Below, in pieces: positions 1,817 through 35,554 of a DNA stretch of 44,601 nucleotides. The position numbers were made by a program, and so were the translations under genes. Source of the DNA: an uncultured Mycoplasmatota bacterium. Lineage in GTDB: Bacteria; Bacillota_I; Bacilli_A; RF39; UBA660. Location: the NCBI GenBank assembly GCA_947571135.1, contig CANOWY010000010.1:1-44601 (forward strand), in the 5' to 3' direction. Position 1 is the first letter of the stretch, and each line of letters starts with the position of its first letter. The notes below the pieces were generated by a model. It saw nothing but the letters and a program-made list of their open reading frames with translations, did no database searches and was not told where the DNA came from.

Positions 1817-4003
1817 TTAATTCTTTTTCTCTTTTAAAATTTTTTCAAATTTATTTCTTTCCGTAATAATATTTATTTTTTTAATATCAGCCTTTCTATT
1901 TTCATACTTTTCTTTTAAATATTTCATAAACAAGTCTTCTAATTTCAGTTTTGCTTTTGTATCAAAATTATTGTTTTTCAAAACATTTTCCATCTTAGTT
2001 CTTAAATATTTCCATGTATCATAATAATTGGTTTTGGTTTTCAACATAAATTGATTGCTATCTTCGATTACAAAACCTTCGATATAATTGCCATTTAATT
2101 GATAGTCTAGTTTACGGGTATCTTCATATATATTTTTAAATTCCTCTAAATCCTTCGCAATATAAACGAGTTCTTTTATTTCAATATCACATTCGCTCCC
2201 AAATTTTGTTAACTCTTCGTATGGCATTTTAGAATAGATTGTACTATTGTATATCATATCTAACATAATAAGATTTTCCTCTTGATATTCTATAATATGA
2301 GGATCATTTACTGAATCTAATACTTCAAAAACAATGGTAACATTATCTTGAAGCATTTTATTCTTTAAAGCCTCTATCTGTTTAATATTGTATTTCTTAT
2401 AAAAAATAGTTTTGAAAAATTCTACATAATCTCCTGTAATTGTAGACTTTGTTGCAAAGAAAAGTTCATTATCTTTTATAGATACTATACCAAGAAATCC
2501 ATTGTATTTTAAATAGAATTTAACTGGAAAAACTAAACTCTTCTCAAGGTTCTCTAGACTCGTCTCTTTCCTTTCTTCAATTTTAAAAAATTTATTATAA
2601 CTTCTTGCAACTATTTTATAATTCTTAGTATCAATAAATAGTCCTCTTGCTTGCGTCGTCATACTATCCCAAATCTTATTAAAAAATGCTTCCTTAGAGA
2701 AATTAAATGAATATATGCCATTTTCTAAATCACGTTTAAAAACATATTTATTTTTATTCAAATCTTCCACTAAATTATAAACACTAGTTTCCTCTGTTAA
2801 ATTGGGATTAAATACCCCATTTTTTATTTCGATATAATCATGTTTGCCATTCTTATTTAATGTAAGTACTCTTAAATATCCACCGTGTTCAATATCTCCT
2901 TCTAAATTATAAGAATATTCATACTCATTATAGTTTATCTTAAAAAAGTTTCTATGTCCGTGAATTTGATAAATTTTATGATTCTCTTTTTTCATAAACT
3001 CATTATATATTTTATCAATGTCGACTTCATAATCATCAATGCCATAAACAAAAGAATTAGTGCTATAAAAGTCGAATGCTTTTTTAGGTATGTAAGGGAT
3101 ACCACCATGCGTTATTAAATACGTAAAACTCCCAAAACGAATAAAGGCAATTTGAGATAATTTTTTCATGAATCCTCTTATCTCACTCTTCTTAATGTTG
3201 TTGTCTTCAAATTCTTGAATCGTATTTTTTATATCATAATCCATTTTAAAAGCATCATCACAAGCATATTTATATAATTTATCTTCATGATTACCAACTA
3301 AAAAAATCATATTTTCTTTCTGCATAAGTTCAGTTAAATACATAAACGTTTCATAGTTTTCTATCCCTCTATCAAAGTAATCTCCTAAAAATATATAAGC
3401 ATCTTGTGAATCGATAGGATACTCGTCAAAATATTTTTTCAAAGTACTAAAACAACCATGAATATCTCCTATTATATGCACTTTATCGTATTTTGAGAAA
3501 TCTTTAGGAAGAGTATTTAGTATGTCATCAAATTGAGTGGGTTGTATCACTTTAAAGGCATTAGGCACCTTTTCCTTAGAAAACATTTTATAAACCTTAT
3601 CTATGGCGTATTCTGGAACAATTTTATATTCTTCTCTTAACAAATTTCTTTTATACACTTCTTCTTTTGGTATTGTTGTAAAATCAACAATGTACATGCG
3701 ATAGCGATACTTTTCTGCTAATTTTTTATAAGTACTTAAGGTATCTGTAGAAGCATGCACAGCATCAATGACTGTAAATTCTCCTTTTTTCATTCTTTCT
3801 TCTAAGATAGAAAATAAAAGTTCCCATACTTTTTTATTATGAAATTGGGGAATCTCTTCTTTATAATCAATATTCATTTGTGGTGAATGAAACAGAAGGC
3901 GAATTTCATCAGAACTTAAAGTAAAATGTTCTAAATAATGTTCTCTTACAAAAGTACTTTTTCCTGAACCCATAGCCCCTCTTAAAATTACTAGTTTTCT
4001 CAT
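1817..4003 (-). CDS. Polynucleotide kinase-phosphatase-RNA ligase (RNA repair)
   Basis: About 728 residues with three catalytic modules. Residues 1-165: P-loop kinase, Walker A G9-AMGSGKS. Residues 175-370: binuclear metallophosphatase with GDIHG (D180, H182), GDYFDRG, GNHED and ITHGG. Residues 390-728: RNA-ligase nucleotidyltransferase, nucleophile Lys499 in KYNGFL, later EVLD and a LKTKT-type motif V. Such enzymes heal and seal broken RNA, for example tRNA cut by anticodon nucleases: 5' phosphorylation, removal of 2',3' cyclic phosphate, then ligation. The longer reading from 4027 lacks a ribosome site; ATG at 4003 follows AAGGAG. The ligase resembles T4 Rnl1 more than Clostridium Pnkp, and no Hen1 methyltransferase gene is adjacent. 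All key motifs are intact. Confidence 0.85.
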   Translation of the reverse strand: MRKLVILRGAMGSGKSTFVREHYLEHFTLSSDEIRLLFHSPQMNIDYKEEIPQFHNKKVWELLFSILEERMKKGEFTVIDAVHASTDTLSTYKKLAEKYRYRMYIVDFTTIPKEEVYKRNLLREEYKIVPEYAIDKVYKMFSKEKVPNAFKVIQPTQFDDILNTLPKDFSKYDKVHIIGDIHGCFSTLKKYFDEYPIDSQDAYIFLGDYFDRGIENYETFMYLTELMQKENMIFLVGNHEDKLYKYACDDAFKMDYDIKNTIQEFEDNNIKKSEIRGFMKKLSQIAFIRFGSFTYLITHGGIPYIPKKAFDFYSTNSFVYGIDDYEVDIDKIYNEFMKKENHKIYQIHGHRNFFKINYNEYEYSYNLEGDIEHGGYLRVLTLNKNGKHDYIEIKNGVFNPNLTEETSVYNLVEDLNKNKYVFKRDLENGIYSFNFSKEAFFNKIWDSMTTQARGLFIDTKNYKIVARSYNKFFKIEERKETSLENLEKSLVFPVKFYLKYNGFLGIVSIKDNELFFATKSTITGDYVEFFKTIFYKKYNIKQIEALKNKMLQDNVTIVFEVLDSVNDPHIIEYQEENLIMLDMIYNSTIYSKMPYEELTKFGSECDIEIKELVYIAKDLEEFKNIYEDTRKLDYQLNGNYIEGFVIEDSNQFMLKTKTNYYDTWKYLRTKMENVLKNNNFDTKAKLKLEDLFMKYLKEKYENRKADIKKINIITERNKFEKILKEKKN

Positions 4004-4069
4004 ATTCTCCCACTCCTTATAGTCCATTTGTATTTTTTATACTATTTATGTTAATTTTAGTTCGTTTCT

Positions 4070-26872: not shown

Positions 26873-27508
26873 TTATTGATTACAACCACTAGTACAAACT
26901 TTTTGTGAATTAAGAACTTGTTCCATATCTTTTTTTAATTTTTGTTTTAAAGCCGAAACTTCTTCTTCGGTCCAATAGGCACCTGGTTCTGATAAACCAT
27001 GAGTATCTTTTGAGGTTTCATAATCGTTTCCTATAATATTTCCTTCGATAATAAAAGTCACATTAGGTACAAAAATCCATGGTTTTCCTTCATCATTGTA
27101 TTGTAAATAACCATCTAATAAATGGACTATCTCGTTATATTTATCCATACTGGTTGCTTTTAATTCCTTTGTATTCGTGTAGTATATTTTTTCTATCCCC
27201 ACTTCTTTGGCAACTTCATTTAAATATTTCACATAAAACTGACACCATGGACATTCTGGAAAACCTAAATAAGTAACTCCTGTTCCATGTTTCATAATCT
27301 CTATAATTTCATCTGGAGTTCTATAAACAAAAACATTTTCTTCTGAAACTTCTGTATATTCGCTTGCAAATTTTTTTGCCTCTTCTTGAATATTTGGTTG
27401 GGTATTGTAAGTTGTATTTTTTTCTTTCATCTTTTTACTGATGAAGAAGAAACCTCCTATCCCTAATAATAGCACCATAAGGAATACTATCATAATTTTT
27501 TTCTTCAT
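26873..27508 (-). CDS. Exported thioredoxin-like protein with CPWC motif
   Basis: 211 residues. Membrane anchor/signal at about 4-24, then a thioredoxin-like domain: TYLGFPECPWCQFYVKYLNEV with redox pair CPWC, later cis-Pro in FVPNVTFIIEG, and a C-terminal CTSGC. The family (bacteriocin transport accessory or PedC/BrcD-like) helps disulfide chemistry outside the cell, but the partner here is unknown; the adjacent BLIP-like lipoprotein has Cys pairs and could be a client. ATG follows GGAAAAATG-type weak site. Confidence 0.8.
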   Translation of the reverse strand: MKKKIMIVFLMVLLLGIGGFFFISKKMKEKNTTYNTQPNIQEEAKKFASEYTEVSEENVFVYRTPDEIIEIMKHGTGVTYLGFPECPWCQFYVKYLNEVAKEVGIEKIYYTNTKELKATSMDKYNEIVHLLDGYLQYNDEGKPWIFVPNVTFIIEGNIIGNDYETSKDTHGLSEPGAYWTEEEVSALKQKLKKDMEQVLNSQKVCTSGCNQ

Positions 27509-27605: not shown

Positions 27606-28316
27606 TTAATTGCAGTTACTTTCAATCGTTAATGGTATTTTATAAGATGTTATTTTATCTGTTTCCTTGGTTGCTTCTATTTCCAAATACAAACTTTCTT
27701 CTGAATAAGTTTTACATATTTTTTGATAATCATCTATGGCGAAAACAACTTGTTGAAGAAATTCTTCTAAGGTGATTTTTTTATTTTCATTGTAATGATA
27801 CGTATCTATTATTTTGGTGTGTTCATTATTTTTTTCGTATAAAGTGCAATTTATGCTACTATATTTCTCCATATCATCTCCACCACAATAACTAACACTA
27901 CTAATATAAATAGAGGATTTAGAATTGTTATAAGCAATACTCCCTGTTATATTAAAATTAGCACAATTTGCTTTCAACATTTTAAATTCAAAACCCTTGT
28001 CTTTATTTACAAGATGAATAATACCTATTCCTCCCACTAATAATAAAGAAATTATAATTACAGTAAAAGATAAAATATAGAGAGTTTGTTTTTTTCTATT
28101 TTTCTTATTATACTTTCCTTCAAAAAGATCATCTAAACTAATATTAAAATCTTTGCTCATTTGTTTCATAAGAGATGTATCTGGCATATTTAAGCCATTT
28201 TCCCATTTACTGACTGCTTGGTAAGTGACATTATACTTTTCTGCAAGTTGTTTTTGGGTTAAATGATGTTTTTTTCTTATCTCTTTTATAAATCTACCAA
28301 ATTTTTCTTGATTCAT
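27606..28316 (-). CDS. Membrane-tethered XRE regulator with outer domain
   Basis: About 236 residues. HTH 1-65 (GRFIKEIRKKHHLTQKQLAEKY, YQAVSKWENGLNMPD), a basic linker NKKNRKKQ, one membrane segment (TLYILSFTVIIISLLLVGGIG), then about 125 residues outside with Cys residues (KANCANF, SYCGG, INCTLYE). Outer sensor tied to a DNA-binding head is the likely design. ATG at 28316 is chosen over 28334 for its GGAG site. The nearby membrane gene at 28451 precedes it in the same direction. Confidence 0.82.
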   Translation of the reverse strand: MNQEKFGRFIKEIRKKHHLTQKQLAEKYNVTYQAVSKWENGLNMPDTSLMKQMSKDFNISLDDLFEGKYNKKNRKKQTLYILSFTVIIISLLLVGGIGIIHLVNKDKGFEFKMLKANCANFNITGSIAYNNSKSSIYISSVSYCGGDDMEKYSSINCTLYEKNNEHTKIIDTYHYNENKKITLEEFLQQVVFAIDDYQKICKTYSEESLYLEIEATKETDKITSYKIPLTIESNCN

Positions 28317-28450
28317 GTTACTTCTCAACTCCATATTGAACTTTCTTAGTCGCTAAGAACTATGTTTTAACTGAACTATTCGTTACAATATTGCTTTTGG
28401 TTCGTTTTTTATTTAATCTCTTGTAGTAATTGTAATTTTATAGTTACTTA

Positions 28451-29108: not shown

Positions 29109-29576
29109 TTAATTTTCTAAATATTTTTTTAGTTCTTTTGCAAATTCGACTTCATTTAACTTACTTAAATCTTTGTCAAAAGCAAGAGAAGAAGACGTTA
29201 TTTCTTCTCCCATCCAGTTTTCTTTTACGTAATTCCTCTCTTCCTCCAATGAAGAAAATGTTACTTCTACTCTATATAATCCTGTAAACTTTCCTAAATA
29301 TTTTTTGATAGAAACTCTGTTATCTTTTAAGAATAAATAACTATCTCTTATAATTTCTGAATATGAATTTGCTTTTAATTCTAAAAATTCAGTTTCTGAT
29401 ATCTCTTTTTTTTCCACTACGTTATTATTAGAATCTAGTATTTCTTTTTGATATTTATTATCCCTTTTTTGAACTCTTAATTCATCATTAATGTAATATC
29501 TTTCATAACGAATAGGATTACTTAAAGGCAAATCGTTTATAGAATTTATAATGTATCTTTTTGTTAATCTTCTCAT
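29109..29576 (-). CDS. CYTH-domain-like protein
   Basis: 155 residues. Layout fits the CYTH/triphosphate-tunnel fold: K/R-rich strand start (RRLTKRYIINS), RYERYYINDELRVQKRD, EKKEISETEFLEL, SYLFLKDNRVSIKKYLGKF and RVEVTFSSLEEERNYV, WMGEEIT. Alternating charged strands lining a tunnel are as in thiamine triphosphatase or class IV adenylate cyclase, but an ExExK at the N-terminus is not seen, so activity is uncertain. ATG has a GAAGGAAT site. It follows the extended -10 at 29607. Confidence 0.7.
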   Translation of the reverse strand: MRRLTKRYIINSINDLPLSNPIRYERYYINDELRVQKRDNKYQKEILDSNNNVVEKKEISETEFLELKANSYSEIIRDSYLFLKDNRVSIKKYLGKFTGLYRVEVTFSSLEEERNYVKENWMGEEITSSSLAFDKDLSKLNEVEFAKELKKYLEN

Positions 29577-29606
29577 TTCTATTCCTTCCTTAATTGTTCT
29601 AATTTT

Positions 29607-29615
29607 ATTGTATCA
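29607..29615 (-). promoter_or_regulatory. Extended -10 promoter of the CYTH-like gene
   Basis: Minus-strand TGATACAAT, 31 bases before the ATG at 29576. Confidence 0.45.
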
Positions 29616-29650
29616 TACCTTATTATCTTGTAACTTTTTTAAATAAAAGC

Positions 29651-29670
29651 GAAATCTGCATAAAGATTTC
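29651..29670 (-). terminator. Possible terminator
   Basis: Stem GAAATCT/AGATTTC, 6-base loop, followed on the minus strand by GCTTTTATTT. It lies in the 29577-29855 gap, possibly ending transcripts from 29856. Confidence 0.4.
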
Positions 29671-29694
29671 CTAATTTTTAATATTTTCAGGGGA

Positions 29695-29766
29695 ATATGG
29701 TTCAATCCACATAAAAAGAACGCTAGTTTTTTAAATAAAAATATAGAAACATAGCGTGAACCATAT
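29695..29766. repeat. Nested inverted repeat in an intergenic gap
   Basis: ATATGGTTCA (29695-29704) is a perfect inverted match to TGAACCATAT (29757-29766), and inside it CGCTA pairs with TAGCG. No gene lies in 29577-29855. It may be a folded RNA, a MITE remnant or chance. Confidence 0.45.
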
Positions 29767-29855
29767 GTGAACTTTTCTGATTCTCAAAAACACATAACTT
29801 ACGTATATATCTTTTAAGATTTTTCAATCTCTTCTAAATGTTTTTTTTATTTTAC

Positions 29856-30314
29856 TTATCTTTTCCATTTTTCTAATTTATAGCCCTTTTCTTCTAAAGT
29901 AGTATGAAAGTCTTCGGCAAAATCTAGAAACTTTTCTATTTCCTCTGCTTGATAAATATTTTTAGGTCCATATAAAGTTTTACTTGATGTTCCTTTTATA
30001 TTTAATATTTCTCCGAAATTTTCGTAATTCTTTTCATATTGAAAACAGATTTGATTATATTTTGGATTGTAAGAAACATTTACGACTTTATCCATTTCGA
30101 TATGATAAGCCTCTGAATAATCTCCTAAATTACTATCTACTTGGATTAATACAACATCAAAATCTTTTTTCCTATACCCTACAATATAGTCATAAAAAGA
30201 AGCCGTATTTGTATCTAGTATAAATCCACGTTCAAATTTTGAAGATGTCATATACGCATATAAAATTTCGTATGTATCACCTTCTGGAACAGATTTATTA
30301 AAAATTTCTCTCAT
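29856..30314 (-). CDS. Unknown protein (152 aa)
   Basis: ATG at 30314 lies after AAAAGAGA. Soluble, no signal peptide. The central part is strand-rich with acid residues (FDVVLIQVDSNLGDYSEAYHIEMD), then YNPKYNQICFQYEKNY and a helical end (EEIEKFLDFAEDFHTTLEEKGYKL). Not recognised. Preceded by an extended -10 (30373-30381). Confidence 0.7.
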   Translation of the reverse strand: MREIFNKSVPEGDTYEILYAYMTSSKFERGFILDTNTASFYDYIVGYRKKDFDVVLIQVDSNLGDYSEAYHIEMDKVVNVSYNPKYNQICFQYEKNYENFGEILNIKGTSSKTLYGPKNIYQAEEIEKFLDFAEDFHTTLEEKGYKLEKWKR

Positions 30315-30372
30315 TCTCTTTTTCTTTATTGCACAATCCTCTTTATCATATTCTGGTACAATTTCTTTTTTT

Positions 30373-30381
30373 ATTATACCA
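30373..30381 (-). promoter_or_regulatory. Extended -10 promoter of 29856-30314
   Basis: Minus-strand TGGTATAAT, 59 bases before the ATG. Confidence 0.4.
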
Positions 30382-30662
30382 TAAATTCTTTCAGTTTAAA
30401 AATTTGTTTTGTTCTATTTCACTGACAATAATGAGATAATAAAAGCAATATCTTATAAAATTATACCACGTATTATTTTATTTTCTGTCATGGCATTTTC
30501 TGGAACAACTACTGCATTTTCAATAATTTTATAAATATAAGGGGAACATTCATCTATCATTGTATTGATAGAAAAACTTCTTTTTTACTTTATATATGGA
30601 ATATCTCCTTTTGAATTGGTTCTTTATAAAGATGGTTTGAAGTACAAAATGATTAAAAAAAA
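30382..30662. other. Intergenic stretch with possible small reading (30453-30560)
   Basis: No solid gene between the promoter at 30373 and the terminator at 30663. A minus-strand frame from 30560 reads MIDECSPYIYKIIENAVVV to ENKIIRGIIL (35 residues) with no ribosome site and stops upstream in the same frame. It may be a gene remnant; I cannot place it. Confidence 0.3.
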
Positions 30663-30698
30663 GAAAAATATCTTAATTTTAACCTTAAGATATTTTTC
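30663..30698 (-). terminator. Strong terminator after 30698-31144
   Basis: Perfect 14-bp stem GAAAAATATCTTAA/TTAAGATATTTTTC, 8-base loop, then CTTTTTTTTAA on the minus strand, touching the stop codon. Confidence 0.8.
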
Positions 30699-31144
30699 TA
30701 TTCTAAAACTTTTTGTGCATTTTCTTTTTTCATTTGGGATAGTTTTGAAGTCTGAATAGTAGCAACAAATAAAAGTATAAAACTTCCTATCAAACAGACA
30801 AAATAAAGTTTTCCAACAGGTGTACCATTTTTTACCCCTTGAACATCTGCATACATTTTATCGTTTGCATAATAAGCCGTTATACTTCTTCCTTTCATAG
30901 CAGGATTAGCACTATGAGCATTTTCTAAATTGTATGTTTTTCCTTTATACTCTACTTCTACATCATACTTATTATAAGTAGAACCATTTTTTTTATTTTT
31001 TATTTGTGTAGTTTTTGCACTTAAAACAACTACTTTTACTTCTTCATAATCTGGGTTACTTTTGTTTACCATAAACCACAATCCTACTGTTGCAAGGACA
31101 CAAACGACAAAAGAAATCCATAAAATCATTACTTGTTTTTTCAT
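30698..31144 (-). CDS. DUF3592-type membrane protein
   Basis: 148 residues: membrane segment near 6-26, an outside beta-rich domain (VKVVVLSAKTTQIKNKKNG, YDVEVEYKGKTYNLENAHS, ITAYYANDKMYADVQG) and a second membrane segment near 116-134, with a short charged tail. This two-helix sandwich is the DUF3592 pattern; function unknown. Follows the BLIP-like copy 2 by 24 bases, likely one transcript with the strong terminator at its end. Confidence 0.75.
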   Translation of the reverse strand: MKKQVMILWISFVVCVLATVGLWFMVNKSNPDYEEVKVVVLSAKTTQIKNKKNGSTYNKYDVEVEYKGKTYNLENAHSANPAMKGRSITAYYANDKMYADVQGVKNGTPVGKLYFVCLIGSFILLFVATIQTSKLSQMKKENAQKVLE

Positions 31145-31168
31145 CTCTAACTCCTACTCTTTAGGAAC

Positions 31169-31711
31169 TTATCGCAAAGAAATGATACTACATTTCCCAT
31201 CTTTGGTAGTAGAAAATGTGGCACTAAAAGTTCTATCGTTTTTATCTACCCAAATGTATCTATCTGATGTTGAAGTTTTACCAGCAAGAGTTCCTTCTAC
31301 ACCACCAAGTTTTTCCACCATTTCTTTATAAGTATAAGATTTTCCTTTATTTAAAGATTCTTTTAATTCGCTAAAAATAGAAAAATCGTTGTCTTCGTTT
31401 TTGATTTTTTCTTTGTCAATCGTAGCTTGTAAAATTGGACTAGTAGAACTCATATCTAAAGTAATCGATTCTTTATCAGACAATTTCCATGTATAGTTTT
31501 CAGAATAATTACTTTTTTCTCCTTCAAAACCAATAATCTCATTAATTTCTTCTACTGTTTTTTTGGTATCTAATAAAGTAATGCATTCTCTAACTTCACA
31601 GTTGCCTTGCACTTTAGGAACTTTCTCTTTCTGTACTTCTTTTTCACCACAGCCTGTTGCTAAACTTAAACTTAACAACCCTAAAATCATATACATACTT
31701 CTTTTTTTCAT
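31169..31711 (-). CDS. BLIP-like lipoprotein, copy 2
   Basis: 180 residues. Lipobox ATGC (Cys21). Two BLIP/SmpA-like units: KTVEEINEIIGFEGE with YTWKLSDKESITL, and SYTYKEMVEKLGGVEGTLAG with RYIWVDKNDRTFSATF. Clear paralogue of 26208-26753: shared NCEVREC/NCTITEC Cys pair, EEINEIIGFE and QATIDKEKIK. C-terminal GKCSI Cys also shared. Signal then soluble outside; binding partner unknown. Extended -10 TGTTATACT at 31736. Confidence 0.85.
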   Translation of the reverse strand: MKKRSMYMILGLLSLSLATGCGEKEVQKEKVPKVQGNCEVRECITLLDTKKTVEEINEIIGFEGEKSNYSENYTWKLSDKESITLDMSSTSPILQATIDKEKIKNEDNDFSIFSELKESLNKGKSYTYKEMVEKLGGVEGTLAGKTSTSDRYIWVDKNDRTFSATFSTTKDGKCSIISLR

Positions 31712-31785: not shown

Positions 31786-32895
31786 CTATTTTTCTAAATC
31801 CCAAGTAAGTCCATTATCTTTACTTATAAATAATAGTTCCTTCTCTTCATATCCACCCGTTAAAACACTTTCATATACAGAACATTTTAATTTTAATATT
31901 TCATTTTCGTAATAAGGATTTTCTTCAACAGTGATAAAATGTACACTATTGTTTTCATAGTTAAATTTAGAAGAAGAAAATGTTTTTCCTCCATTTTGAG
32001 TCACGAATAATCTTCCGTAACTTTCGTTTCCCTTTAATCCAATATTGCCTGTTGAAATAGTAAACCCAATTGTTTCATTTAAAAATACAAATTGTGCTTC
32101 TAAACTTACAATGAGTGCTTCTTCGGTGATAGCATAAAAATTATTGCCATTATCAGGACTTCTTAAGACATTTACTGCCATATTTTGAGGCAGTACACTC
32201 TCTACTTGAATCACTCGTAATATAGTAGATGAAAATTGCACTTCATAAAGTGGCTCCTTATCTTCAGGCAATAGGTATTCTTCACTTTTTGATGGCTTAG
32301 TTGTTGTACTGTCATAGATAATATGAACATCTTCCTCCCACAATCCATCCTTATTTTGTATCCAGGTAATCGATTCTTTTAAAGTTACTTTTTCTTCTTC
32401 ATCGTAATAAGTATATTCTACTTTTCTTCCTTTAAACATTTCAAAAGGATTATAGTCTTTGTCTTCAAAATAGGCATGTACTTTTTCTTTTATTCCGACA
32501 ATAAAGGATCCAAAGGAATCGTAATAAGCCATATCCACATAGGGTTCTTTTTGTAAAACAGCAACATACGTTTTATCTTTTAATCTAACTGAATATTCTG
32601 GTTTATAAAATATAGAAATTAAAAGAAAACATGGAATTAAAACGATTAGGAATGAAAACCCAATGACTAGATACGTTATTCGTTTTTCTAGTTTATTTTG
32701 ACACTTTTTTAGAATAAAGTCTGTAATTCCTACTAAAAAGTGAATCAGAATCACCAATATTAGAATAAACACTACCCAATTTCGTAATCGTAAATTCATA
32801 AGATAAAGTAAAAATTGAAAAACGAACATACTTCCTAAAAATAGTAAGGATTTTTTCAAACTATTTTTTCTTATTTTTTTTCCTAACTTTTTCAT
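31786..32895 (-). CDS. Membrane protein with outside BNR/Asp-box repeats
   Basis: About 369 residues. Three hydrophobic segments in the first 110 residues (SLLFLGSMFVFQFLLYLMNL, WVVFILILVILIHFLVGI, LVIGFSFLIVLIPCFLLISI), then a beta-rich outside domain. Asp-box-like motifs S-x-D-x-G-x-x-F/W occur as SPDNGNNF, TQNGGKTF and SKDNGLTW, typical of sialidase-type beta-propellers; no catalytic sialidase residues are evident, so binding is likelier. Two starts are possible; ATG at 32895 has GAGG 6 bases before it. It overlaps the end of the upstream XRE gene (ATGA), so both are made together. Confidence 0.75.
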   Translation of the reverse strand: MKKLGKKIRKNSLKKSLLFLGSMFVFQFLLYLMNLRLRNWVVFILILVILIHFLVGITDFILKKCQNKLEKRITYLVIGFSFLIVLIPCFLLISIFYKPEYSVRLKDKTYVAVLQKEPYVDMAYYDSFGSFIVGIKEKVHAYFEDKDYNPFEMFKGRKVEYTYYDEEEKVTLKESITWIQNKDGLWEEDVHIIYDSTTTKPSKSEEYLLPEDKEPLYEVQFSSTILRVIQVESVLPQNMAVNVLRSPDNGNNFYAITEEALIVSLEAQFVFLNETIGFTISTGNIGLKGNESYGRLFVTQNGGKTFSSSKFNYENNSVHFITVEENPYYENEILKLKCSVYESVLTGGYEEKELLFISKDNGLTWDLEK

Positions 32896-32903
32896 ACATT
32901 TCC

Positions 32904-33917
32904 TCATTTCAAAATAATGCTTTTTTCATACTCTTTTAAATAGTTTTCTTGTAAAATCAATTTTCCATTTTTGATAATAAATTTAGATGTATTGGGAATT
33001 TCTAAGTCTTGTTTTTTTTCTTTCATAGCGGTTCTGTAATAATAAAGTTCATCGTTTTTGATTTCAAAAGTACCTTTAGAATTTTCTAAAAGAGTTTTTC
33101 GTTTTTCTTGCTTTTTATCATAATAGGAAACAGACAAGGTTGCAATAAATTCCTCTTCTTCTTTTCCTAAATAAAAGGAAACATTTAAATCGGATTCTTC
33201 CGTATATAAGGTATGCATTCTATTTAACCCTTCTAATTTTTCTTTGTATTCTTTTTCTTTTAAATTATCACAATAATTTCCATCACGAATTTGGTAAGTT
33301 ACGGTATTATAAAAAAGTTTTCCCTTTATGGTATATTCTATTATACTTATCATGGCTTGTTCATCATAATAGTAGATAGTATTATAACAAGGAATGGCTT
33401 TTAACGTGTTTAGGTACTGTTTCACTTCTGATTCTAAAATGTTTTTGCCTCTCATATTTTTATAAGAAAAACTATTTTGATACGTTGTATGAAAAAAAGA
33501 AAATTTAGGTTTTCCGAGGTTAATCAATTTATTTGTGTTATGGGTGTACCTTATATGATCTACTGTATAACCAAAAGGAATCAGTTTAAAAAGGGATATA
33601 AGTATAATGATTAGAAATGGAACAGATAGTTTTAGTATTTTTTTCCAATATTGTTTTTTCAATTTTTCTTGTTCTTCTTCCAATTTTTTCGTAATATCAA
33701 TGTCTTTTTTATTTTGGATTTGTAGTATTTCGTAAATAGTTGTATCTAAAACTTGGGCTAAGTTTTCTAAAATCGAAATATCTGGTAAACTTAATCCCCG
33801 TTCCCATTTACTTACGGCTTTATCTGTAACATGAATTTTTTCCCCTAATTCTTTTTGAGTTAAATTTGCCTCTTTTCTTTTGTTTGCTATCCACAACCCT
33901 ATTTTATTGTAATCCAT
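32904..33917 (-). CDS. Membrane-tethered XRE regulator with large outer domain
   Basis: 337 residues. XRE HTH 1-65 (GLWIANKRKEANLTQKELGE, DKAVSKWERGLSLPD), coiled linker (about 75-100, EEEQEKLKKQYWKK), one membrane segment (ILKLSVPFLIIILISLFKLI), then about 210 residues outside, strand-rich. Stop is TGA. Start follows GAGGGA. Overlap with the BNR membrane protein suggests a two-protein sensor, the outer propeller feeding the tethered regulator; this is inference. Confidence 0.85.
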   Translation of the reverse strand: MDYNKIGLWIANKRKEANLTQKELGEKIHVTDKAVSKWERGLSLPDISILENLAQVLDTTIYEILQIQNKKDIDITKKLEEEQEKLKKQYWKKILKLSVPFLIIILISLFKLIPFGYTVDHIRYTHNTNKLINLGKPKFSFFHTTYQNSFSYKNMRGKNILESEVKQYLNTLKAIPCYNTIYYYDEQAMISIIEYTIKGKLFYNTVTYQIRDGNYCDNLKEKEYKEKLEGLNRMHTLYTEESDLNVSFYLGKEEEEFIATLSVSYYDKKQEKRKTLLENSKGTFEIKNDELYYYRTAMKEKKQDLEIPNTSKFIIKNGKLILQENYLKEYEKSIILK

Positions 33918-33990
33918 ATAAATCCCTCACTTACAACCATTATATAATTTTAAATGATAAGATACAATCGACTGTTGGTTTACAAGAAAA

Positions 33991-34579: not shown

Positions 34580-35554
34580 CTACTTTTTATTTATTAAATC
34601 TTGACCTTCGACTCTACTTCTTATAAATGAATCGTTTATAAGAAAATTAATAAAATCATTAATAGTTAATTTAGCATTTTTTTCAAGCAGTCTCTCCTTT
34701 TTATTAATAAAATTAGGCATTCTTTTTTTTATTTCTATAGAAGATAATCCTAAATATTCAAACCAATAAGGTAAAATCAGTTCTTTATATTTTGCTAAAC
34801 TATAATCTAGAGTATTATGGCCTTCCCCATATTTTGACTTTCCACTTAAAATAGTATACAGTTCATTATCTGAAATCAATTCGATAACAGTATGAATAAT
34901 ATCAAATTCAAATTCAAAGATTTTATAATAATCCACAATAGTAGCATTTAACATATCCCAGTGATCCTGGTTTGAAATTTTTTCGCTTTTATCATAATAT
35001 AATTTCATTGCTGGTGGCATGCAATTGTCGTTTGGTAATAAAGCATGAAGATTTTCATGACATAAATAAGCAATATTATAATTTATATCCATGATTCCTT
35101 TCCAATGTCCCCAAAAAATATACTTTTGATCAACACATTTTCCAGTATTCAATTTCGGATGAGAAATATATACATACATTGTTTTTTTAGAAGTGTTCAA
35201 TCTTATAATATCTTTAAGCCATTTATTGATATCGTTTTTCTTTTTTTCCCAAGTATTTTGAATTAACTTTAAATAGTTAACGCTTTCGTTATAATATTTA
35301 GAAAACAAATCATCTTGCATAATTTGATTCATCATAGAATCCCAATGATTGTGTAATGCAAACTGCTTAAATTCTCCACTAATAAAATATTCTTCCATTG
35401 TTTCTGTTTTTAATTCTATTTCTTCTACAATCTTAGGGTTAAGTATATTAACGATTATATTTTTTTTCCATAGAGTTAACTCTTCCATATTATTTCTATT
35501 ACTAATCATTTTCAATACTAAATAATTTTCGTCCATTATAAACTTATAATTCAT
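34580..35554 (-). CDS. Unknown protein with HExxH motif, putative zinc metallopeptidase
   Basis: 324 residues, soluble, no signal. A classical zinc motif H166-ENLH (in NIAYLCHENLHALLPNDN) sits mid-protein, with possible third ligands downstream in HTVIELISDNELY (Glu). The N-terminal 130 residues are acidic/helical and unrelated to peptidases I know. The C-terminal part is helical (EYLGLSSIEIKKRM, INDFINFLI). It lies directly upstream of the broken XRE regulator. An ImmA-like pairing of metallopeptidase with XRE regulator comes to mind, but the sequence is not ImmA. Family unrecognised. Confidence 0.7.
   Translation of the reverse strand: MNYKFIMDENYLVLKMISNRNNMEELTLWKKNIIVNILNPKIVEEIELKTETMEEYFISGEFKQFALHNHWDSMMNQIMQDDLFSKYYNESVNYLKLIQNTWEKKKNDINKWLKDIIRLNTSKKTMYVYISHPKLNTGKCVDQKYIFWGHWKGIMDINYNIAYLCHENLHALLPNDNCMPPAMKLYYDKSEKISNQDHWDMLNATIVDYYKIFEFEFDIIHTVIELISDNELYTILSGKSKYGEGHNTLDYSLAKYKELILPYWFEYLGLSSIEIKKRMPNFINKKERLLEKNAKLTINDFINFLINDSFIRSRVEGQDLINKK

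Follow-up and report, generated by a model that had tools for sequence, protein, structure and literature searches.

A candidate two-gene membrane sensor-switch in gut Bacilli, pairing a tethered HTH_3 regulator with an Asp-box protein

A 44,601-nucleotide stretch of DNA from an uncultured Mycoplasmatota bacterium (GenBank assembly GCA_947571135.1, contig CANOWY010000010.1), referred to here as the window, carries two neighboring genes that seem, with somewhat more confidence than doubt, to encode an autoregulated membrane sensor-switch in which the outer domains of both proteins would act as a joint outside receptor. One transmembrane (TM) helix would anchor the regulator, leaving the HTH_3 domain inside and the outer domain (ED) outside. 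The partner would be held by three TM helices so that its Asp-box domain is exposed beside the regulator, and ED and the Asp-box domain would together form the receptor. Ligand or partner state would then alter the dimerization or stability of the regulator, which would act on a 15-bp dyad element of its own promoter. Direct contact between ED and the Asp-box domain, and the sensing of a ligand, are thus presumed steps of the scheme. All window features described below lie on the reverse strand.

The regulator and its Asp-box partner

The regulator gene (33917 to 32904) encodes a protein of 337 amino acids and is preceded by a GAGGG Shine-Dalgarno sequence (33924 to 33928), 6 nt before the ATG at 33917. 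An HTH_3 domain was identified by Pfam (E value, 7.8e−14) at residues 10 to 63 (33729 to 33890) and is the best-conserved part of the regulator, with 64 to 76% identity across pairs. A hydrophobic stretch at approximately residues 93 to 112 (33582 to 33641), which is a helix in the structure model of a relative, is the predicted single TM helix, with the N terminus inside. The remaining ∼220 residues (approximately 117 to 337; 32907 to 33569) form ED, which was delimited by alignment and is of mixed alpha-beta secondary structure according to the relative's model. Relatives of the TM-ED part with 51 to 53% identity adjoin the same partner. Two cysteines of ED, Cys177 and Cys216, were invariant in a seven-sequence ED alignment and likely form a disulfide. 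No sequence match to ED was found in Pfam or the PDB, and the Foldseek matches listed were of HTH and Asp-box/propeller types only. The HTH_3 match, TM helix and outer domain bear out the tethered regulator described in a first-pass annotation of this sequence.

The partner open reading frame (ORF) as called runs from 32907 to 31786 (373 amino acids) and has four bases, ATGA, in common with the regulator ORF, an overlap that the first-pass annotation took to make the two proteins in fixed proportion. The four bases are literally present, but as a gene arrangement the overlap was rejected as an artefact of start choice in ORF calling. Homologues of the partner align from residue 4 or 5 of the long ORF, and within TGAGGAAATGTATG a GAGG Shine-Dalgarno sequence (32902 to 32905), lying over the regulator stop codon (32904 to 32906), is spaced for a second ATG at 32895. 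Equivalent sequences in relatives are commonly TAAGGTG, TGAGGT or TAGGTG. Regulator and partner genes of homologous pairs are separated by 6 to 15 nt, with one gap of 74 nt (L176), and none overlap. Given these starts, spacings and gaps, the partner gene most likely begins at 32895, encodes 369 amino acids (31786 to 32895) and lies 8 nt from the regulator gene. A fixed proportion set by ATGA is thus not supported, since the overlap is an artefact, although translational coupling of the two genes is plausible.

Three TM helices were predicted by AlphaFold at residues 4 to 33, 38 to 64 and 68 to 96 of the partner (32608 to 32886; pLDDT, 52 to 84). Apart from these helices, which were also present in the aligned model of a relative, the partner was modelled poorly from its single sequence. 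A middle beta domain follows at approximately residues 100 to 200 (32296 to 32598), placed by alignment and containing seven strands in the relative's model, and the Asp-box domain occupies approximately residues 213 to 369 (31789 to 32259), as indicated by Pfam BNR matches in the family and by Foldseek. Two forms of partner could be distinguished across the family: long partners have three TM helices and the middle domain, which is missing from short partners, consisting of one TM helix and the Asp-box domain.

The relative's model was obtained by running AlphaFold2 on the regulator and partner of a related pair (L175) as one chain with 43 aligned sequences; a TAG stop codon was read as Q solely as a folding device, and natural read-through is not claimed. 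The model was locally confident (pLDDT, 79; pTM, 0.36) and contained a mixed alpha-beta ED, the three TM helices and seven-stranded middle domain of the partner, and an Asp-box domain of short strands. As the artificial linker would place ED on the wrong side of the membrane, the model has no bearing on contact between ED and the Asp-box domain.

Motif searches identified three Asp-boxes in the partner, SPDNGNNF (32137 to 32160), TQNGGKTF (31978 to 32001) and SKDNGLTW (31801 to 31824; Pfam BNR E value, 3.4e−4), beginning at residues 246, 299 and 358 of the 369-residue form with spacings of 53 and 59 residues. Three Asp-boxes were reached by approximately 1 in 10,000 shuffled sequences. The window partner scored 20.6 bits against Pfam BNR, under the curated cut-off of 27, while 22 of 24 family members matched at an E value of ≤0.1, mostly weakly. 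A profile of the partner family gave a weak match to sialidase (best E value, 0.014). Foldseek searches of the PDB matched CyRPA, NanH, sortilin and GH74 with probabilities of 0.93 to 1.0, with target TM-scores of only 0.10 to 0.28; these structure matches appear consistent with Asp-box blades and not with a demonstrated closed propeller. The likeness to Asp-box propellers (sialidases, sortilin/Vps10, GH74 and CyRPA) lies in the S/T-x-D/N-x-G-x-T-W/F motifs and in local fold similarity (PMC2716378). Those described so far have 6, 7 or 10 blades (PMC2716378), whereas here three motifs in ∼160 residues amount to roughly three blades' worth, and a catalytic role is not suggested. Of the BNR propeller assigned to this protein by the first-pass annotation, the evidence thus extends to the three Asp-boxes and not to a complete propeller.

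Conservation of the pair and its promoter element

Among 386 genomes of the window's own family, the Asp-box family was found in 30 and a strong ED match in 22, with both in 14 genomes where 1.7 were expected (kinship ignored). In 13 genomes, representing 12 genera of one Bacilli family, the regulator and partner genes were adjacent and identically ordered; the partner was of the long form in 11 of these and of the short form in 2 (G345 and G439). A second scan covered named genome records, overlapping the family sample; one query sequence gave no match, and loci were found with an alignment query. At 12 of the 14 long-form loci, and at 3 of the 16 short-form ones, the regulator gene lay immediately upstream. 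Record titles referred to uncultured Bacilli, Tenericutes, Erysipelotrichaceae or Firmicutes, and several gave rumen, rectum or rabbit ("Lapin") as the sample source. In a class sample of 300 genomes, matches outside the family were marginal, and the regulator-partner system thus appears lineage-restricted as far as sampled.

Flanking genes were mostly singletons (49 of 58), so the pair is kept while its neighbors change, and adjacency persists down to ∼41 to 45% partner identity. Across 18 pairs the distances between regulators correlated with those between partners (r = 0.87), a value reached by none of 5,000 permutations (kinship ignored). A search for a conserved neighborhood had been proposed in the first-pass annotation as a check on its reading, and the pairing was indeed recovered, in 12 genera and amid unrelated flanks; the reading thus withstands one refuting outcome named there, an absence of conserved pairing.

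In another genome of the window's genus (G018), a broken remnant of the partner with stop codons lies between the same two neighbor genes (L020, 7045 to 7758), and no intact regulator is left, which shows recent loss. As the partner survives there only as this remnant, the system is dispensable.

Upstream of the regulator gene, a 15-bp element, TAAACCAACAGTCGA (33968 to 33982), was identified with the consensus TAAACYAACRGTNGA and the dyad T..AC(Y)...(R)GT..A. It occurs at a fixed position in 16 of 16 loci with this HTH and is without counterpart at three loci with a divergent HTH. The element lies ∼60 to 65 nt before the ATG and, in most loci, 22 to 23 nt before a TATAAT-like −10 sequence. 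From the sequence and the conserved spacing of the element, the core promoter of the window pair (33939 to 33967) is predicted to comprise TTGTAT (33962 to 33967), a 17-nt spacer and TATAAT (33939 to 33944). With TATAAT counted as −12 to −7, the element spans approximately −49 to −35 and is centered near −42, a position from which lambda-CI-type proteins activate. This center, together with poor −35 hexamers, suggests activation rather than repression. The best-conserved positions are dyad symmetric (T0/A14, A3/T11, C4/G10 and Y5/R9), as expected for a dimeric HTH of the Cro/CI type, and the HTH is predicted to bind here.

Exact copies of the element numbered 16 in 18 genomes, with 12 at the regulator promoter and 4 inside genes; the reversed control gave 4. 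The other exact copy in the window's genome falls in coding sequence. When the element was sought together with a −10 sequence in 228 genomes, nine matches were obtained, seven before HTH-ED genes, one before an HTH-Asp-box fusion gene (G297) and one before an acetyltransferase gene (G036). Seven of eight held-out promoters carried the element exactly and the eighth with a single mismatch, compared with four to five mismatches in decoy HTH promoters. A wide regulon was rejected, as the extra copies lie in genes and the acetyltransferase match is at chance level (two in the reversed control). The element is essentially single copy per genome, at the regulator promoter. From its distribution we infer that the operon is autoregulated, probably with few other targets, and that it may be the main or only target of the regulator.

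Other tethered or HTH_3 regulators were noted alongside these loci. Another HTH_3 family has its own palindrome-like elements, TCTACTAATTGTAGG and TCTACTAAAAGTAGG, upstream of 4142 in L177 and of 5015 in L197, respectively. The window itself carries a second tethered HTH_3 regulator of 242 amino acids (27606 to 28334), composed of HTH, TM helix and outer part, whose promoter is without the 15-bp element (four mismatches). It is followed by a gene for a membrane-anchored CPWC protein (26873 to 27508) that looks like a thioredoxin-fold accessory protein.

Outer domains on the input side and rival readings

In one relative (G065), a TM helix connects the same HTH (HTH_3 E value, 7e−12) with a distinct Asp-box domain, ∼480 residues long, which had no significant sequence match to the window partner. 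The next gene, 11 nt downstream, encodes a TM-ED protein that lacks an HTH and matches the window ED (E value, 1.5e−44). HTH-Asp-box fusions were also identified in G297 and G359, where the stretch read contained no ED gene, and the promoter element precedes both the swap locus and the fusions. The HTH can therefore sit behind either outer domain, and of all the observations this domain swap argues most strongly for placing both outer domains on the input side. The bipartite outside sensor envisaged by the first-pass annotation thus draws indirect support from adjacency in 12 genera, unrelated flanks, correlated divergence and the swap.

The main rival to a joint receptor is that ED alone senses, as in a one-component regulator, and that the Asp-box protein is a surface or envelope output gene of the autoregulated operon. 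HTH-ED genes with the same promoter element but no partner occur in G044 and G293, and in G442, G270 and G362 the gene following HTH-ED encodes a different small membrane protein. Asp-box genes without a regulator are also common (13 of 16 short-form genes, and the long-form genes of G049, G339, G378 and G155), and because the element is essentially confined to this promoter, the output of the system would be the operon itself. On the other hand, the fusion of this HTH to Asp-box domains in three genomes would make such domains its input, and the swap locus keeps ED as a separate neighbor; sensing by ED alone is accordingly regarded as rather unlikely, though worth serious consideration. Were the partner instead to inhibit the regulator, or to protect or hold it as a chaperone, without binding a ligand itself, it would behave as known co-component partners do, with ToxS and TcpH shielding ToxR and TcpP from proteolysis (PMC9214523, PMC11323476), and the strict order of regulator then partner would fit. 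This role is considered improbable; with its conserved Asp-box domain and the modules added C-terminally in short forms (a YEEIR fusion in L189 and, in single members, a Big_14 or DUF3221 domain), the partner looks more like a surface receptor. Chance or whole-region synteny without any functional link, which nothing favors beyond the restriction to one bacterial family, was rejected as extremely improbable given the singleton flanks and the adjacency of pairs with strongly diverged partners.

Under the joint-receptor reading, a more speculative extension may be considered, although it is a long shot. The Asp-box domain could be a fractional propeller of about three blades that is completed by a second copy or by ED, closure around a ligand being the dimerization switch of the regulator, and HTH, ED and Asp-box domain could be exchangeable modules of one lineage-specific family of self-regulating sensors.

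Two other origins were rejected. PADLOC gave generic HTH-region matches for the regulator and none for the partner, which does not indicate a defence system, and viral contigs contained no ED relatives, which speaks against a phage origin.

A small membrane or lipoprotein family with the motif KRYEEIRxxVxxxVxW, termed YEEIR, was observed next to the Asp-box gene or immediately following HTH-ED (L172, L173, L190, L191, L194, G442, G270 and G362), in addition to the fusion to an Asp-box domain mentioned above. It is possible that this protein is a third component; the window held no convincing copy.

Comparison with known systems and other features of the window

Co-component systems such as ToxR/ToxS and VtrA/VtrC combine a membrane-tethered transcription factor with a separate membrane receptor subunit and have been reported so far chiefly from Vibrio and other enteric bacteria (PMC9214523). 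The window pair resembles them in being a conserved two-gene operon, in which a regulator with an N-terminal cytoplasmic HTH, a single TM helix and, on the outside, a domain containing conserved cysteines is followed directly by the gene for a membrane-held partner with its own outer domain, the two proposed as the input. Homology to the ToxR/VtrA superfamily, with its CadC-like HTH and lipocalin-like partner, was not found. The HTH here is of the HTH_3 (Cro/CI) type rather than CadC/ToxR-like, the partner has an Asp-box domain and three TM helices in place of a lipocalin-like domain, ED is without an assigned fold, and the hosts are gut Bacilli instead of enteric proteobacteria. The genes do not overlap, and HTH and outer domains are swapped in a relative. 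The pair would work like a co-component system but, by its HTH and partner types, stands outside the VtrA/VtrC superfamily. The first-pass statement that no named system matches thus holds in that neither the partner nor ED falls within a named protein family, but not for the layout, which follows the co-component paradigm (PMC9214523). If the proposed scheme is true, it represents an apparently independent co-component version in gut Bacilli, assembled from HTH_3, Asp-box repeats and a domain without a named family. For lineages known chiefly through metagenomes it would also be a candidate system for sensing the outside, and the predicted operator and natural domain swap open it to tests in a laboratory Gram-positive host.

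The regulator is also a transmembrane transcription regulator (TTR), its single chain combining a DNA-binding domain with at least one TM region, and the single-pass HTH type is the commonest TTR layout (PMC10269533). It differs in being conserved together with a partner gene and a promoter element of its own, and the main text of the TTR paper makes no mention of an Asp-box, BNR or propeller module (PMC10269533). A literature search for a propeller combined with a transmembrane regulator in Firmicutes found nothing. In Bacteroides hybrid two-component systems, a propeller and Y_Y_Y outer sensor is found in the same chain as histidine kinase and receiver domains. The shared feature is an outer sensor of propeller type that is connected through the membrane with a DNA-binding domain (see PMC10269533); no histidine kinase or receiver domains were found in either window protein.

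ED-like outer domains without HTH were observed in genomes of the window's genus (among them L027, L030 and L049, from G009, G010 and G000:C24, respectively). These proteins occur genus-wide, adjoin an apparent glutamyl-tRNA synthetase gene and in some cases have a long Lys/Thr/Ser-rich N terminus. Around the window pair, neighboring genes (34580 to 35554 and 29109 to 31711) encode proteins of 324, 180, 148, 152 and 155 amino acids without a clear Pfam or NCBIfam family. Elsewhere in the window (1817 to 4027), a single protein combines AAA_33 kinase, metallophosphoesterase and T4-type RNA ligase domains, the arrangement of RNA repair enzymes of the end-healing and sealing kind.
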